DNA from: Sphingobacteriaceae bacterium | GTDB taxonomy: Bacteria; Bacillota; Sulfobacillia; Thermaerobacterales; RSA17 | DNA length: 59,767 nucleotides | Direction of reading: 5' to 3' | NCBI GenBank assembly: GCA_035303785.1 | Contig: DATGRI010000028.1 | Coordinates: 1-59,767 of the forward strand | Part shown: in pieces, positions 18,295 through 28,685 of the stretch | Position numbering within the stretch: the stretch's first letter is position 1 | Layout: the number at the start of each line of letters is the position of its first letter | The notes under the pieces: model-generated | Database searches by the model: none | What the model was told of the DNA's origin: nothing | What the model saw: the letters and a program-made list of their open reading frames with translations, nothing else | Position numbers and translations under genes: made by a program

Positions 18295-21057
18295 ATGGTG
18301 GGGCTGCGGACACGGCCAAAGGCGTTGCGTAGGTTTGCAAGGGTTTTTGTAGTTCTGCTGGCCTTGTTGTGGTCGGTGCCGGCGGCGCTGGCTGCCGGGC
18401 CGGAACCCATCGGCCCCGGCACCACCCTCCAGTTGATCGCCGAGGAAATCAACGGCGCCCCCCAGCATGTGGGCGTTGTCGTAGTGGATCCCACCGAATC
18501 CCTGGTGGCCATCAAGGTGGGCCGCGCCCCCCGGGTGGGCGAGCGGGAGAGGGTCAGCACCCAGGCCGCCCGGGAAACCCGCTCCCAACATGCCGTCATC
18601 GCCGCCGTCAACGGCGACTTTTTCGACAACAGCGCCGGCTTTGCCGGCATCCCCACGGGCATCTTCGTGGTAAATGGTGAACTTTTGGTCAATCCATGGG
18701 GTCCCGCCCTGGGCTTCGCCGAGGACGGCAGGCCCTTCATCGGCACCCCCGAATGGCTGGCCAAAGTGGAAATCTTGGACGAATCGGGACGGGTGGTGGC
18801 CCAGCGCCAACTGGATGCCGTCAACCGGCGCCGGGATGAAAACCGCCTCGTCCTCTACACCCCCGCCTTCGGCACCAGCACCTTGACCAACGGGTGGGGC
18901 GTGGAAGTTACCGTTCTGGGCATGCCGTCGCCCTTGACGCCCGACTATGCCGGCGAAGGGGTCATTCAGTTTGTGGAGGTGGGCGACGGCTTGGGCATCC
19001 CATGGGGCCCCCCGCCAGGCAACGGTCAGGCCGATGATCCTCCGGAAGACCCCGGCAATGATCCTAATGATGTTCCTGATGATGAATCGGATGATGGAGT
19101 CGAACAGGACGAGTCGGACGAAGAGGATGATGACACCGGCGCTCCCCCCGGACCGCCGCCGCCCTCTGCGCCTCCGGGCCACCGGCCGGGCTCGGGCAGC
19201 GCCCAAATCCTGCCCGGCACCATGGTCTTGTCGGGCCATGGGGAGGCGGGCAACTTCCTCCTCACCCACGCCCGGGCGGGTCGTTCCGTGCGTATCACCA
19301 TTGAAGCCGACACGCCCTGGGATGAAGTGCGCTTTGCCGTAGGGGGTCGACCCATCCTGGTTTCCGGCGGTCGGCCTCAGGCCCCCAGCCCCGGCGATCC
19401 CCTGCCCAACAGCCGGGCGCCCCGGACAGCCGCCGGCATCGACCGGTCCGGCCGCCTGGTGCTGGTGACGGTGGACGGCCGCCAAGGAGGCAGGGCCGGC
19501 ATGACCTTGCCCGAATTCGCCGACTTTTTGGCGGGGTTGGGCCTGCAGTCGGCCATCAATTTGGACGGCGGCGGCTCCACCACCCTCTATGCCCGCCTGC
19601 CGGGCCACATGGAAGGCCGGGTGGTGAACCGGCCCAGCGACGGCGCCGAGCGGGCAGTGGCCAATTCGGTGCAGATCATCAGCTTGGCACCGGAGGGCAC
19701 CAAGGTAAGTCGCGTTTGGATTGAACCCGGCGGGCCCCTCCTGGTCCTGCCGGGCACCCAGGTGCAGCTGACGGTCCGGGCCCAGGACGAGTACTTCGGC
19801 CCGGTGGATACTTCCCGCTGGCGGGCCACATGGTCGGTGGAGCCCGTTGACCGAGACGAGCCGCCGGCAACGGTGGACGGCAACGGCCTGCTCACGGCCA
19901 CGGCCCCGGGGCAGGGCCGGGCTCGGGTCGCGGTGGACGGTCAGCAAGCCCAGGTAGAGGTGACGGTGCTTTCGCCTGGGGAAGTGGGCGAGGTCATCCT
20001 GGACCCCGGCCCTGAAGCAGGCCAGTGGCAGCCAGGGCAGACGGTGACTTTGGGCGTCCTGGTTCTTGACCGGCAGGGGCGCCCGGTCCAGGTGGATCCC
20101 GCCTCCCTGGTCTGGCGGGCGGGCGAAGGCCTGGGCACCGTGGAAGGCTCCCGCCTGACCCTCCGGGATGAAGAGCCCGCCGGGGAATTGAGCGTCAGCC
20201 TCCGCTATGAGCGGGACGGTGCTCCGGTGGAAGAGCGCCTGGCCCGCTGGCTGCTGTCCATGGATGAAGAGGGCCGCTGGCTGGTGGTGAAGGCGCCCGA
20301 ATTCGATGACGTGCTGGGCCATTGGGCCGCCGAGGCCATCGGCATCATGGCGGGCCGCGGCGTGGTGCAGGGCTATCCCGACGGCTTGTTCCGGCCCGAT
20401 CAGGAAGTGACCCGGTCCGAGTTGGTGCGCATCGTGGCGGGCAGCCTGAGGGCCGGCGGCATCGTGGGTGATATGGACTACAACGGCGACCTGCGCTTCA
20501 CTGATGCCGATGACATCCCCGACTGGGTGGCGGAGGATCTGTACGCCGCCGTCCAGTGGGGCTTGATCACCGGCTATGAAGACGGCACCTTCCGCGGCGA
20601 CGAGGGCGTCACCCGGGAGCAGGCGGCGGCCATCGTCGTGCGGGCCTTGGCCCTGGCCGACCCCGACCGGCTGGAGGGAATCACCCTCCCCTCCAGGGGC
20701 GCCTCCGAGGACCCGGCCGATGAGCCGGAACCGGAGGATGACGGGGAAGACGTCCCCCCCGAAGGCGACCAAGAAGGAATGCCTGAAAGCGCGGATTTCG
20801 ATGAAGAGGAAGCCCAGGGCGACCATGTTGCCGGACCCGAAGCCCATGAGCGGGAAGAGGAAGCCGATGCAGCCTCTGTTCTGCCCTTGTTCAGGGATGA
20901 CGAGGACATAGCCGACTGGGCCTGGGAGATCGTCTACATGGGTGTCCAGACCGGCCTGATCCAAGGGTTTGAAGACAATACCTTCAGGCCCCAGGACGTG
21001 CTGACCAGGGCCCAAGCCGTGACCTTGCTGGTGCGGGTGATGAACTGGCAGCGTTAA
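18295..21057 (+). CDS. Phosphodiester glycosidase (NAGPA-type) and SLH-domain surface protein
   Basis: A 920-residue exported protein. Residues 1-33 are a signal peptide ending near ALAAG. Residues ~95-462 carry a phosphodiester glycosidase (NAGPA) domain: AAVNGDFFD, RTAAGID and INLDGGGSTTLY, with RAVANSVQ near the end. The family cleaves sugar-1-phosphate diesters, for instance in wall polymers. The domain is interrupted at about 243-303 by an Asp/Glu-rich then Pro-rich insert. Residues ~465-560 look like a bacterial Ig-like (BIG2) fold, ~560-665 like another beta domain, and ~670-920 like three SLH repeats, with a second acidic insert before the last. A GAGGTGA site precedes the ATG. It is probably a cell-surface wall- or exopolymer-processing enzyme. 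Confidence 0.88.
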   Translation: MVGLRTRPKALRRFARVFVVLLALLWSVPAALAAGPEPIGPGTTLQLIAEEINGAPQHVGVVVVDPTESLVAIKVGRAPRVGERERVSTQAARETRSQHAVIAAVNGDFFDNSAGFAGIPTGIFVVNGELLVNPWGPALGFAEDGRPFIGTPEWLAKVEILDESGRVVAQRQLDAVNRRRDENRLVLYTPAFGTSTLTNGWGVEVTVLGMPSPLTPDYAGEGVIQFVEVGDGLGIPWGPPPGNGQADDPPEDPGNDPNDVPDDESDDGVEQDESDEEDDDTGAPPGPPPPSAPPGHRPGSGSAQILPGTMVLSGHGEAGNFLLTHARAGRSVRITIEADTPWDEVRFAVGGRPILVSGGRPQAPSPGDPLPNSRAPRTAAGIDRSGRLVLVTVDGRQGGRAGMTLPEFADFLAGLGLQSAINLDGGGSTTLYARLPGHMEGRVVNRPSDGAERAVANSVQIISLAPEGTKVSRVWIEPGGPLLVLPGTQVQLTVRAQDEYFGPVDTSRWRATWSVEPVDRDEPPATVDGNGLLTATAPGQGRARVAVDGQQAQVEVTVLSPGEVGEVILDPGPEAGQWQPGQTVTLGVLVLDRQGRPVQVDPASLVWRAGEGLGTVEGSRLTLRDEEPAGELSVSLRYERDGAPVEERLARWLLSMDEEGRWLVVKAPEFDDVLGHWAAEAIGIMAGRGVVQGYPDGLFRPDQEVTRSELVRIVAGSLRAGGIVGDMDYNGDLRFTDADDIPDWVAEDLYAAVQWGLITGYEDGTFRGDEGVTREQAAAIVVRALALADPDRLEGITLPSRGASEDPADEPEPEDDGEDVPPEGDQEGMPESADFDEEEAQGDHVAGPEAHEREEEADAASVLPLFRDDEDIADWAWEIVYMGVQTGLIQGFEDNTFRPQDVLTRAQAVTLLVRVMNWQR

Positions 21058-22215: not shown

Positions 22216-23985
22216 TCAGGCCAAGGCGGGCTCGCCGGTGGGCGGGGTGGGCGAGTCGGTGCTGCCGTCGATGACGCGGAAGCCCAGGCGGCGGCTTTCC
22301 TCGGCGAAAAAGGCGATGCTGGCGGTGCTGGTGCGCTCCCCCAAACTGCGGTGCTCGTACCGGCCGGTAACGGCCAGGATGATGGTTTCCGCCAGGCAAG
22401 CGGGGATCAGGCCGTCGCCGAAATGGAGGTCCAGCCGGTTGTGCATCTCGCCCGGGGGCTTGACGACACCGCCGGGGATGACCTGCACCCCGGGAACTTC
22501 CTCGGCCACCGAGGCATCCACGTCGGCGGGGCGGCCCAGGTCGAAGATGATGGCGTTGGGCGCCACGTGCCGGGGGAAGATGACCGAATCGGGCTGGGAA
22601 GTGGCGCTGAAGATGATGTCGGCCTCCCGGAGGGCGTCCAGGTCGGTGGTGGTCTCTATGATGGTCTCGGGATGGCGCTTGGCCAGGCGCCCGGCCATCC
22701 GCTCCAGGCGCTCGGCGTTGCGGCCCACCATGATGAGCCGCCGCACGTTGCCGGCCAGGTTGCGGGCCATGCCGAAGCCCACCACGCCGCCGGCGCCCAC
22801 CACGGCGGCGGTGCATTCCTCGGGGTTCTGGCCCCGGCTTTCCATAAGGGCCAGGGCTTCCTGCAGCCCTGTCTGGACGGTGGCGGCGGTGTAGGCGCCG
22901 CCGTTGGTCACCGGTATGGACACCGCCTCCTGGACCCGCTGGCCCTTGTCGCCCACCACGGACCAGTAGGCTCCCAGGCCGAAGGCCCGGGCGCCCATCT
23001 CCTCTGCCAGGCGGGCGGCGGCGACGGCCCGGCGCACCGCCAGGTCGGGATGGTCCAAGATCTGTTGGGCCGACAAGGGAATGCCCAGGATGATGACCCG
23101 CACCCGCCGGCCGTCGGCGGTGACTATGCCCCGAATTTCATCGAAATGCATGGGGCGCAGGCGCAGGGCCAGGCCCTCCAGCCAGCGCCAGGGAATCCGG
23201 CCGGCTTCGGCCCACGGCTTCAGCCAGGCGAAGAGCCGCATCTGCCACCAGTCGTCTGGGGACATGCGGTGGACCAAGAAGGCGCAGGTGACCTCGTCCT
23301 GGCTGACGGGCAGCGGGCGGGATTCGGCGGCGCCCAGTTCCTGGCCTTCCACCATGCGGGCCAGGTTGGCCTTGTGGCGCCAGACCAGCAGGATTGCTGT
23401 AATCACCAGGGGGGAAATGAAGGGCCCCCGGTGGCCCAGGAACCAAGCGGCCACGGGCGCCGTCACGGCGGCGGCCACGTTGCCCAAGGCGGTGTAGCCG
23501 TGGCCCCGGCCCAGGAGATAGGGGGTCAGGACGGTGACCAGCCATACCGCCACGCTGATGACGGGCACCCACCAGCTCAGGCCGGCCCCCAGGGACAAGC
23601 CCAGCAGGGCGCCCAAGGTGGTGAAGGCGCCGCGGCTCCGGGGCAGGGGGTCGGGGATCAGCCAGCGGGCCAGCAGGGGAAAGAGGTGGCCCGCCACCAC
23701 CCCGGGGACGGCCGCCGCCGCCCACCAGGGCGGGACGAAGGGCAGGGCGGAAGCGGCCAGCACCGCCGCCATCCCTTTGAGCACGTCGGCCAGGGAAACC
23801 AGGGCGGCTTGGCGCGGTCCGGCGTGCTGCAGCAAGGCAGGCACGCCCACCATGTAGCCGGGCAGGCGGCGCAGTTCGGCCCGGCCCAGCCACCCCCACA
23901 GCAGGTGCCCAACGGGTATGCTTCCGATGATGTAGCCCAGCCCGGCGGCGGCGATGATGGCCGGCCAGGCCGCTGGATCCGTCAA
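22216..23985 (-). CDS. PlsY-like membrane domain fused to an acyl-ACP-reductase-like dehydrogenase
   Basis: A 589-residue fusion. Residues 1-216 resemble the acyltransferase PlsY: GSIP at 21-24, a DVLKG segment at 67-71, GHLFPLL at 99-105 and the third motif region WRHKANLARMVEGQE at 202-216. The two catalytic glycine motifs are replaced: the GSGNxGATN position reads PGYMVGVPA and the GGKG position reads RSRGAF. Residues 232-575 resemble cyanobacterial acyl-ACP reductase (COG5322): LGAYWSVVG near 337-345, a nucleotide loop GAGGVVG at 397-403, VIPGGVVKPPG at 502-512, and IPACLAET with Cys530 at the position of the catalytic acyl-cysteine. I infer a membrane-bound fatty acyl-ACP (or acyl-phosphate) reductase giving fatty aldehyde. 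TTG start after AAGGAG, with its own promoter. Confidence 0.8.
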   Translation of the reverse strand: MTDPAAWPAIIAAAGLGYIIGSIPVGHLLWGWLGRAELRRLPGYMVGVPALLQHAGPRQAALVSLADVLKGMAAVLAASALPFVPPWWAAAAVPGVVAGHLFPLLARWLIPDPLPRSRGAFTTLGALLGLSLGAGLSWWVPVISVAVWLVTVLTPYLLGRGHGYTALGNVAAAVTAPVAAWFLGHRGPFISPLVITAILLVWRHKANLARMVEGQELGAAESRPLPVSQDEVTCAFLVHRMSPDDWWQMRLFAWLKPWAEAGRIPWRWLEGLALRLRPMHFDEIRGIVTADGRRVRVIILGIPLSAQQILDHPDLAVRRAVAAARLAEEMGARAFGLGAYWSVVGDKGQRVQEAVSIPVTNGGAYTAATVQTGLQEALALMESRGQNPEECTAAVVGAGGVVGFGMARNLAGNVRRLIMVGRNAERLERMAGRLAKRHPETIIETTTDLDALREADIIFSATSQPDSVIFPRHVAPNAIIFDLGRPADVDASVAEEVPGVQVIPGGVVKPPGEMHNRLDLHFGDGLIPACLAETIILAVTGRYEHRSLGERTSTASIAFFAEESRRLGFRVIDGSTDSPTPPTGEPALA

Positions 23986-24034
23986 GGCGGTTCTCCTTCC
24001 GGAACCGGAAACAATGCCGGAAACTTATATCCCC

Positions 24035-25428: not shown

Positions 25429-26180
25429 GTGCCCATGGGTCGGGATGTCCTGGAGCTGGCTGCCGGCGGTCTCGCCTTCGGGGCCGTGTACGTCCTTCTC
25501 GCCTTAGGCTTCGCCGCCCTCTATCATTCCCTTCGCATGTTTACCAAGACAGCGGGTTTATTCCTGCCCGTGCTCTTCATCGGGATCCTGGCCGCCCTCC
25601 GTTGGTTCTTTGAGTTGGGGGGAGGCGTGAGGCTCCACTGGCGGCCGTGGCTGGACACTGTTCTGCCTTATGACAAGGCCGCCTTGTCCACACCGTGGGG
25701 CTTGGTTTCCCCGGACCTTTGGCTGACCATAGCCGTGGCCCTGGCAGCCGTGGCCGGGCTGGGCATTGCCCTTAGGCTCTTCCCCTGGGGCACGGCGGTG
25801 CGGGCTTGGCTCATGAGTCCCCCCGGCGCTGTGGAGCACGGCATTGAGGCCCGCCGGCTGGGCTTTTCCCTGCTGGCCGCCGGCGGGGTACTGCTGGCCT
25901 TGGGCTTTGGGGCGGCCGGCATACATGGCACCGTCGAATGGAATTGGGTCACCCTTCTCACCTCCAAAGCCCTGCTGGCAGCGGCCCTGGGCGGCGGGCT
26001 GCGCCGGTACGGGGGTGTGGTCGTCGTGGCGGTGGCCATGGGCTTGCTGGAAGCCTGGCCCCCCGCGGCACCCATCTGGAGCGGCAGTTGGATGATATAC
26101 GTCTTGGCCTTCCTGTTCTTGCTCGGGCGGGGTCTGGCCGCCCGGGCCGTTTCCTGGGGGTCGGCAGGGACGGGCCCGCC

Positions 26181-26184
<4 letters not shown>
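25429..26184 (+). CDS. LivH-like ABC transporter permease (branched-chain amino acid type)
   Basis: A 251-residue integral membrane protein with about seven hydrophobic segments. LELAAGGLAFGAVYVLLALGF near the start and a cytoplasmic loop AVRAWLMSPPGAVEHGIEARRLG in the middle match the LivH pattern, though the sequence is divergent. The GTG at 25429 has a purine-rich site just before it; the ATG at 25435 is an alternative. Its stop overlaps the next gene by four bases (ATGA), so the two permease halves are co-translated. The substrate could be amino acids, urea or short amides. Confidence 0.82.

Positions 26185-28685
<2,501 letters not shown>

Follow-up and report, generated by a model that had tools for sequence, protein, structure and literature searches.

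What might a bacterial protein make whose N-terminal half resembles the membrane acyltransferase PlsY and whose C-terminal half resembles the cyanobacterial acyl-ACP reductase (AAR)? A gene of this kind lies in the window, by which we mean the whole 59,767-nucleotide stretch of contig DATGRI010000028.1 (GCA_035303785.1) that was analysed. On balance, its product is best read as a membrane-tethered NAD(P)H-dependent fatty-acyl-ACP reductase built on a remodelled PlsY scaffold. The product of the reaction is likely to be an aldehyde and, with slightly less assurance, the donor would be acyl-ACP.

The gene and its surroundings

The open reading frame has exactly the coordinates originally given (22216..23985), for which no strand had been stated; it comprises 589 codons on the minus strand and begins with a TTG start codon. 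A Shine-Dalgarno sequence, AAGGAG, is located 7 nt 5' of the start (23993..23998, minus strand). Full-length homologues with 39-50% identity were found in many independent genomes, although the start sites of several of them were trimmed to the alignment. Because the same architecture recurs in so many independent genomes, the fusion is neither a chance product nor an assembly artefact. Its neighbours in the window, named mostly from their sequences, encode a PPIase and a Zn-alcohol dehydrogenase; the latter was considered as a pathway partner and rejected, since it is found near no other fusion examined. The fusion region is adjoined by a likely cell-surface enzyme composed of a phosphodiester glycosidase (NAGPA) domain and three S-layer homology repeats (18295-21057, plus strand). 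A further reading frame (26175-28685, plus strand) combines a BPD_transp_2 branched-chain amino-acid permease domain with two ABC ATPase domains, which are normally three proteins (LivM, LivG and LivF).

The acyl-ACP-reductase half

Residues 231-575 (22261..23295, minus strand) were assigned to a COG5322/AAR/PigE-type acyl-ACP-reductase domain by NCBIfam, profile and Foldseek searches. The closest sequence family was the reductase domain of PigE (118.9 bits). A profile of 28 fusions matched the AAR structure 6jzu (6e-23), which was also the top Foldseek match (E 2e-18, target TM 0.76) when the window protein was modelled with AlphaFold2 from 28 sequences (pLDDT 85). The NADPH-binding glycine loop GAGGVVG, recognized in the sequence at residues 397-403 (22777..22797, minus strand), contains two glycines, G397 and G400, that are invariant in 60/60 fusions. 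Alignment to 6jzu and 4ppm equated Cys530 (22396..22398, minus strand), the predicted thioester nucleophile, with Cys294 of AAR and Cys296 of PigE. The original prediction had named both the nucleotide loop and Cys530 as retained features, and both were recovered. In AAR and its relatives, the acyl group is loaded onto this Cys and reduced with NADPH to yield the aldehyde. Given the AAR fold, the Cys and the NADPH loop, the proposed formation of fatty aldehydes is upheld as the most likely predicted activity.

Fold, glycine loop and nucleophile (C294 = C530) are thus shared with cyanobacterial AAR (TIGR04058; PDB 6JZQ/6JZU). AAR, however, is a free protein of ~340 aa whose partner is an aldehyde-deformylating oxygenase, whereas the window domain is joined to a membrane domain and scored 49.6 bits against TIGR04058, far under the equivalog cut-off of 449.7, which speaks against its being a membrane-tethered acyl-ACP reductase. 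The N-terminal thioester reductase of PigE (PDB 4PPM; NF053554) shares the conserved Cys and provides a precedent for the conversion of a thioester to an aldehyde and then an amine, as PigE reduces the thioester to the aldehyde before transamination (PMC8341465). Where PigE has a class III aminotransferase domain, the fusion has its PlsY-like domain; a Pfam search of the window protein gave no PF00202 (class III aminotransferase) match.

A different substrate for the AAR half, be it another acyl thioester to be reduced or an amino or hydroxy acid to be oxidised, is rather improbable. The old name of COG5322, 'predicted amino acid dehydrogenase', points in this direction, as do the match to the generic Rossmann family PF01488 (Shikimate_DH; 45.7 bits, cut-off 24.3) and a Rossmann core resembling that of glutamyl-tRNA reductase. 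Nevertheless, whole-domain fold and profile searches placed AAR and PigE far ahead of both enzymes, which were therefore rejected: AroE/YdiB appeared only at a Foldseek E of ~4e-5 (target TM 0.42-0.44), the 43-bit match to hemA was confined to the Rossmann core, and 1gpj gave a target TM of 0.27. In addition, the nucleophilic Cys is AAR-like, and a partner domain with the fold of a lipid enzyme makes a long-chain substrate more likely. An assignment to the shikimate dehydrogenase or glutamyl-tRNA reductase families, named at the outset as the outcome that would overturn the AAR assignment, did not arise: by fold AAR ranked first, and by sequence family PigE/AAR.

The PlsY-like half

Residues 1-216 (23338..23985, minus strand) form a PlsY-like seven-helix membrane domain. 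Pfam PF02660 (G3P_acyltransf, PlsY) matched residues 16-211 with 75.7 bits (cut-off 24.1), and the NCBIfam PlsY equivalog TIGR00023 scored 64.7 bits, below its cut-off of 137.2. The profile of 28 fusions retrieved the PlsY structure 5xj5 (1e-30), and Foldseek returned the seven-helix PlsY fold with a target TM of 0.78-0.84 to 5xj5-5xj8, so the fold proposed for this region was confirmed by both the Pfam and the structural match. Since Pfam/NCBIfam, profile and AlphaFold2/Foldseek searches all match both halves, both domains are real and lie in one chain, and the suggested PlsY-AAR fusion stands on sequence, profile and fold searches alike.

Residues were compared using PlsY of Aquifex (aaPlsY) as the alignment reference. 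In aaPlsY, glycerol-3-phosphate (G3P) is clamped by S35, R45, K104 and N180, and the acyl-phosphate site consists of H92, T41 and the loop 3 turn, with motif 2 mainly serving this second site; alanine at the clamp residues cuts >92% of activity and R45K >90% (PMC5700162). Motif 1 of the window protein (residues 41-56; 23818..23865, minus strand) is degenerate, with S35/T41/R45 replaced by G43/P49/Q53, and motif 2 (residues 116-119; 23629..23640, minus strand) is remodelled from GGKG to RSRG, with Arg116 at the position of Gly102 and Arg118 at that of Lys104. Motif 3 (residues 202-216, WRHKANLARMVEGQE; 23338..23382, minus strand) keeps H177 and N180 as H204 and N207. The loss of both glycine motifs and the retention of the third, as first described from the sequence, were therefore seen in the alignment as well. 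In place of the G3P phosphate clamp, the protein has G43/Q53/R118/N207, i.e. the clamp is broken up. At the acyl-phosphate site, T41 is replaced by P49 and the GGKG of loop 3 by RSRG, and the acyl-phosphate-contacting H92 (PMC5700162) is kept as His100 (23686..23688, minus strand), which is invariant in 60/60 fusions. The Gly102 position is likewise Arg in 60/60. Selection differs between the halves: the Cys530 position is C in 58/59 fusions, while 56/60 have another residue in place of S35 and 50/60 have Glu in place of T41, where the window protein has Pro and most Deinococcota fusions have Glu. The fusion thus has the seven-helix fold, the invariant His92 equivalent and motif 3 in common with PlsY (PF02660; PDB 5XJ5-5XJ9), from which it differs by the lost G3P clamp, the invariant Arg at position 102 and the C-terminal reductase as well as, in the window genome, by the lack of a detectable PlsX.

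The full clamp is kept in two fusions from metagenome-assembled genomes (MAGs), L087 (L087:7950-9758) and L090, which lie closest in the tree to canonical PlsY and whose PlsY halves retain S35, T41, R45, K104, S142, H177 and N180. Fusions of this type likely represent an evolutionary intermediate. Because they keep the clamp and sit nearest to canonical PlsY, the PlsY pocket probably joined the reductase intact and was rebuilt later, not merely eroded, as far as can be judged from the alignments.

The same two proteins could be taken to indicate a bifunctional enzyme, in which a working glycerol-3-phosphate acyltransferase and an acyl reductase share an acyl pool within one chain, all the more as L087 is the only PF02660 protein in its genome (G542) and the window genome shows no other PlsX or PlsY and only one PF01553 protein, which is PlsC-like. 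We consider this unlikely, given that the window protein has kept none of S35, T41 and R45, that substitutions of clamp residues in aaPlsY remove most of the activity (PMC5700162), and that most fusion-bearing genomes examined retain a separate canonical PlsY. PlsY-like domains also occur in other company: a degenerate PF02660 domain is joined to a polysaccharide deacetylase (PF01522) in L064:4696-6177, and in G057 a separate polysaccharide deacetylase (L054:10765-11931) adjoins the PlsY-AAR fusion.

Acyl supply in the window genome

The window genome (G000) is a 1.64 Mb draft that is 97.9% complete. Family searches detected no canonical PlsY elsewhere in it, which settles a check proposed with the original prediction, and no PlsX (PF02504), the latter result resting on one search of this draft genome together with the empty operon slot described below. 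The FASII operon, whose gene names were read from sequence, is arranged fapR-fabH-fabD-fabG-acpP-fabF (L211:5548-10586, G000:C36); fapR overlaps fabH, leaving the plsX slot empty in an otherwise complete operon. The corresponding order is fapR-plsX-fabH in the relative G016 and fapR-plsX in G001, a member of the same family. As no PlsX was detected and fapR abuts fabH, a supply of acyl-phosphate is not evident in the window genome, where the FASII/ACP operon is present. The original idea that the two halves draw on a shared acyl-phosphate/acyl-ACP pool is consequently not supported. In the nearly closed genome G037 and in G001, PlsX is present without a PF02660 match, so that acyl-phosphate may be used there by a strongly diverged PlsY or by a different acyl-phosphate acyltransferase.

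These data also bear on the possibility that the fusion is an acyl-phosphate reductase, with the PlsY half capturing PlsX-made acyl-phosphate and the AAR half attacking it via Cys530 and reducing it to the aldehyde. Such a reaction would account for the invariance of His100 and for the basic residue kept at position 104 in motif 2, a motif devoted mainly to the acyl-phosphate site (PMC5700162), while the G3P clamp was lost; moreover, PlsX is present in four of the fusion-bearing genomes (G016, G022, G042 and G057). It is nonetheless unlikely, because no PlsX was detected in the window genome, where the plsX slot is empty, and because T41, which holds the acyl-phosphate carbonyl through its backbone and hydroxyl, has become Pro in the window protein and Glu in most Deinococcota. 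Acyl-phosphate was downgraded as a donor once the search of the window genome had yielded no PlsX.

A standalone COG5322 paralogue is encoded elsewhere in the window genome (L057:9464-10546, G000:C24). Its catalytic Cys is replaced by Ala (VIPAAMAET; MACMAET in G001) and it forms a very long branch in the AAR tree, so it looks inactivated or repurposed. The fusion is hence the only AAR with an intact Cys found in this genome, and the missing plsX together with the Cys-less paralogue favours acyl-ACP over acyl-phosphate as the substrate. Directly upstream of the standalone gene, a protein of ~300-330 aa is encoded in the two genomes read (L068:5241-6146 and L057:8439-9443); that of L068 gave no Pfam or NCBIfam match.

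According to the preferred reading as an acyl-ACP reductase, the cytosolic AAR domain would accept the acyl group from acyl-ACP as a thioester on Cys530, which would be reduced by hydride from NADPH, with release of the fatty aldehyde beside the membrane. In the PlsY-like domain, the G3P clamp would have been dismantled and the pocket rebuilt around the invariant Arg116. This domain would anchor the reductase and probably hold or pass on the acyl chain or aldehyde instead of acylating glycerol-3-phosphate, although its role as anchor and pocket is put forward only cautiously.

Distribution and origin

Within the class of the window organism, the full fusion was found in 6/154 genomes (G000, the window genome, and G016, G022, G042, G057 and G092), a patchy occurrence that suggests loss or transfer. 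At a strict threshold, the other genomes of the phylum-wide sample yielded standalone COG5322 proteins only and no fusion. By contrast, a profile search of the Deinococci class identified the fusion, mostly at full length, in 107/111 genomes, including those of Thermus, Meiothermus, Oceanithermus and Truepera. DdrB was considered as a marker for Deinococcus genomes among these and rejected, as it matched only 9/111, one of them apparently Oceanithermus profundus. A scan of public genomes with a five-sequence alignment (a single-protein query gave no match) returned 45 loci, mostly from Thermus, Meiothermus, Calidithermus and other Thermaceae, along with a few from Armatimonadota and other MAGs. 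A tblastn search of plasmids revealed nothing beyond distant aminotransferase-type proteins of Proteobacteria. The activity had been attributed to a Gram-positive lineage; the fusion proved near-universal in the Deinococci class searched, and its spread over this class and its Thermaceae as well as Armatimonadota MAGs renders that framing incidental. Split matches were also obtained: the fusion is interrupted by a frameshift in a Thermus parvatiensis record (L125:7980-9524), reflecting a sequencing error or a broken gene, and further split matches came from G561, G564 and G603 in the Deinococci-class profile search.

In the AAR-domain tree, 44 fusions were separated from 52 standalone or aminotransferase-fused copies by a branch with a support of 100, and the PlsY-domain tree likewise contained one fusion clade (support 93); both trees were built quickly and contain some long branches. 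In each, the window protein forms a pair with L085, the G016-type fusion (support 97 and 96), and the same sister pairs recur within the fusion clade. With one fusion clade recovered for each half, a single fusion event followed by joint inheritance of the halves is likely on phylogenetic grounds. The standalone COG5322 proteins of Bacillota, located beside greA-lysS (e.g. L056, L068), consist of the same domain, with the Cys kept in the relatives' copies read (e.g. G001), but they lack the membrane domain and form a separate, well-supported clade.

The genes next to the fusion vary between lineages. The order is rplT-fusion-mqnB in Thermus and fusion-prmA-rsmE in Trueperaceae (names mostly read from sequence, including the identity of mqnB, which adjoins the fusion in Thermus and Meiothermus, as a futalosine hydrolase). 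As lineage-local housekeeping neighbours, mqnB and prmA-rsmE were rejected as pathway pointers. No conserved lipid-gene neighbourhood was found around the fusions of Thermus, Trueperaceae and the window, a second point against a membrane-tethered reductase of fatty acyl groups. A third is that no partner aminotransferase came to light.

The architecture had been described as lacking a characterised protein, in line with a literature search that found no paper describing it. A search for TTHA0555, presumably the locus tag of the T. thermophilus orthologue, also returned nothing.

A tentative link to alkylamine phosphoglycolipids

The major phosphoglycolipid of Thermus contains an iso-C17 alkylamine as a third chain, amide-linked to glyceric acid (PMC3398001). 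Alkylamine phosphoglycolipid is a marker of the Deinococcus-Thermus lineage, and a related lipid was described from Deinococcus (PMC3035268). As of 2022, the enzymes forming the third (alkylamine) chain in Thermus thermophilus 'have not been identified' (PMC9636437). By analogy with PigE chemistry, a fatty aldehyde would be a natural intermediate on the way to an alkylamine. Fatty acids were reportedly found to be alkylamine precursors in D. radiodurans by Anderson and Huang in 1992. In the Thermus-Deinococcus group, the aldehyde might thus be aminated to give the alkylamine chain of the phosphoglycolipid N-glyceroyl-alkylamine. That the fusion is the aldehyde source for this chain in Deinococcota is a tentative proposal based on co-occurrence at the phylum level, a distribution shared by many genes. 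As a lead, it is the only long-chain reductase candidate met in Deinococcota, albeit through a search for fusions and not a survey of reductases. The combined proposition, that the fusion family is the aldehyde-forming enzyme of the alkylamine chain and that PlsY, a committed phospholipid acyltransferase, was converted into the membrane part of a reductase via an intermediate whose active site was still complete, is a shade more tentative still.

With its near-universal occurrence and its predicted fatty-acyl reductase, this uncharacterised fusion opens one step of the alkylamine pathway to a direct test. The fusions also illustrate, in a rare series that runs from near-intact through partly lost to rebuilt, how an essential lipid enzyme is turned to another use, and for the window organism the fusion flags a genome without detectable PlsX, canonical PlsY or a second PF01553 acyltransferase.

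In relatives of the window organism, three large proteins (L058:3149-6313, L059:4178-6901 and L063:8739-11444) carry an AAR-like domain after a class III aminotransferase, an order opposite to that in PigE, and are candidate fatty-amine synthases.
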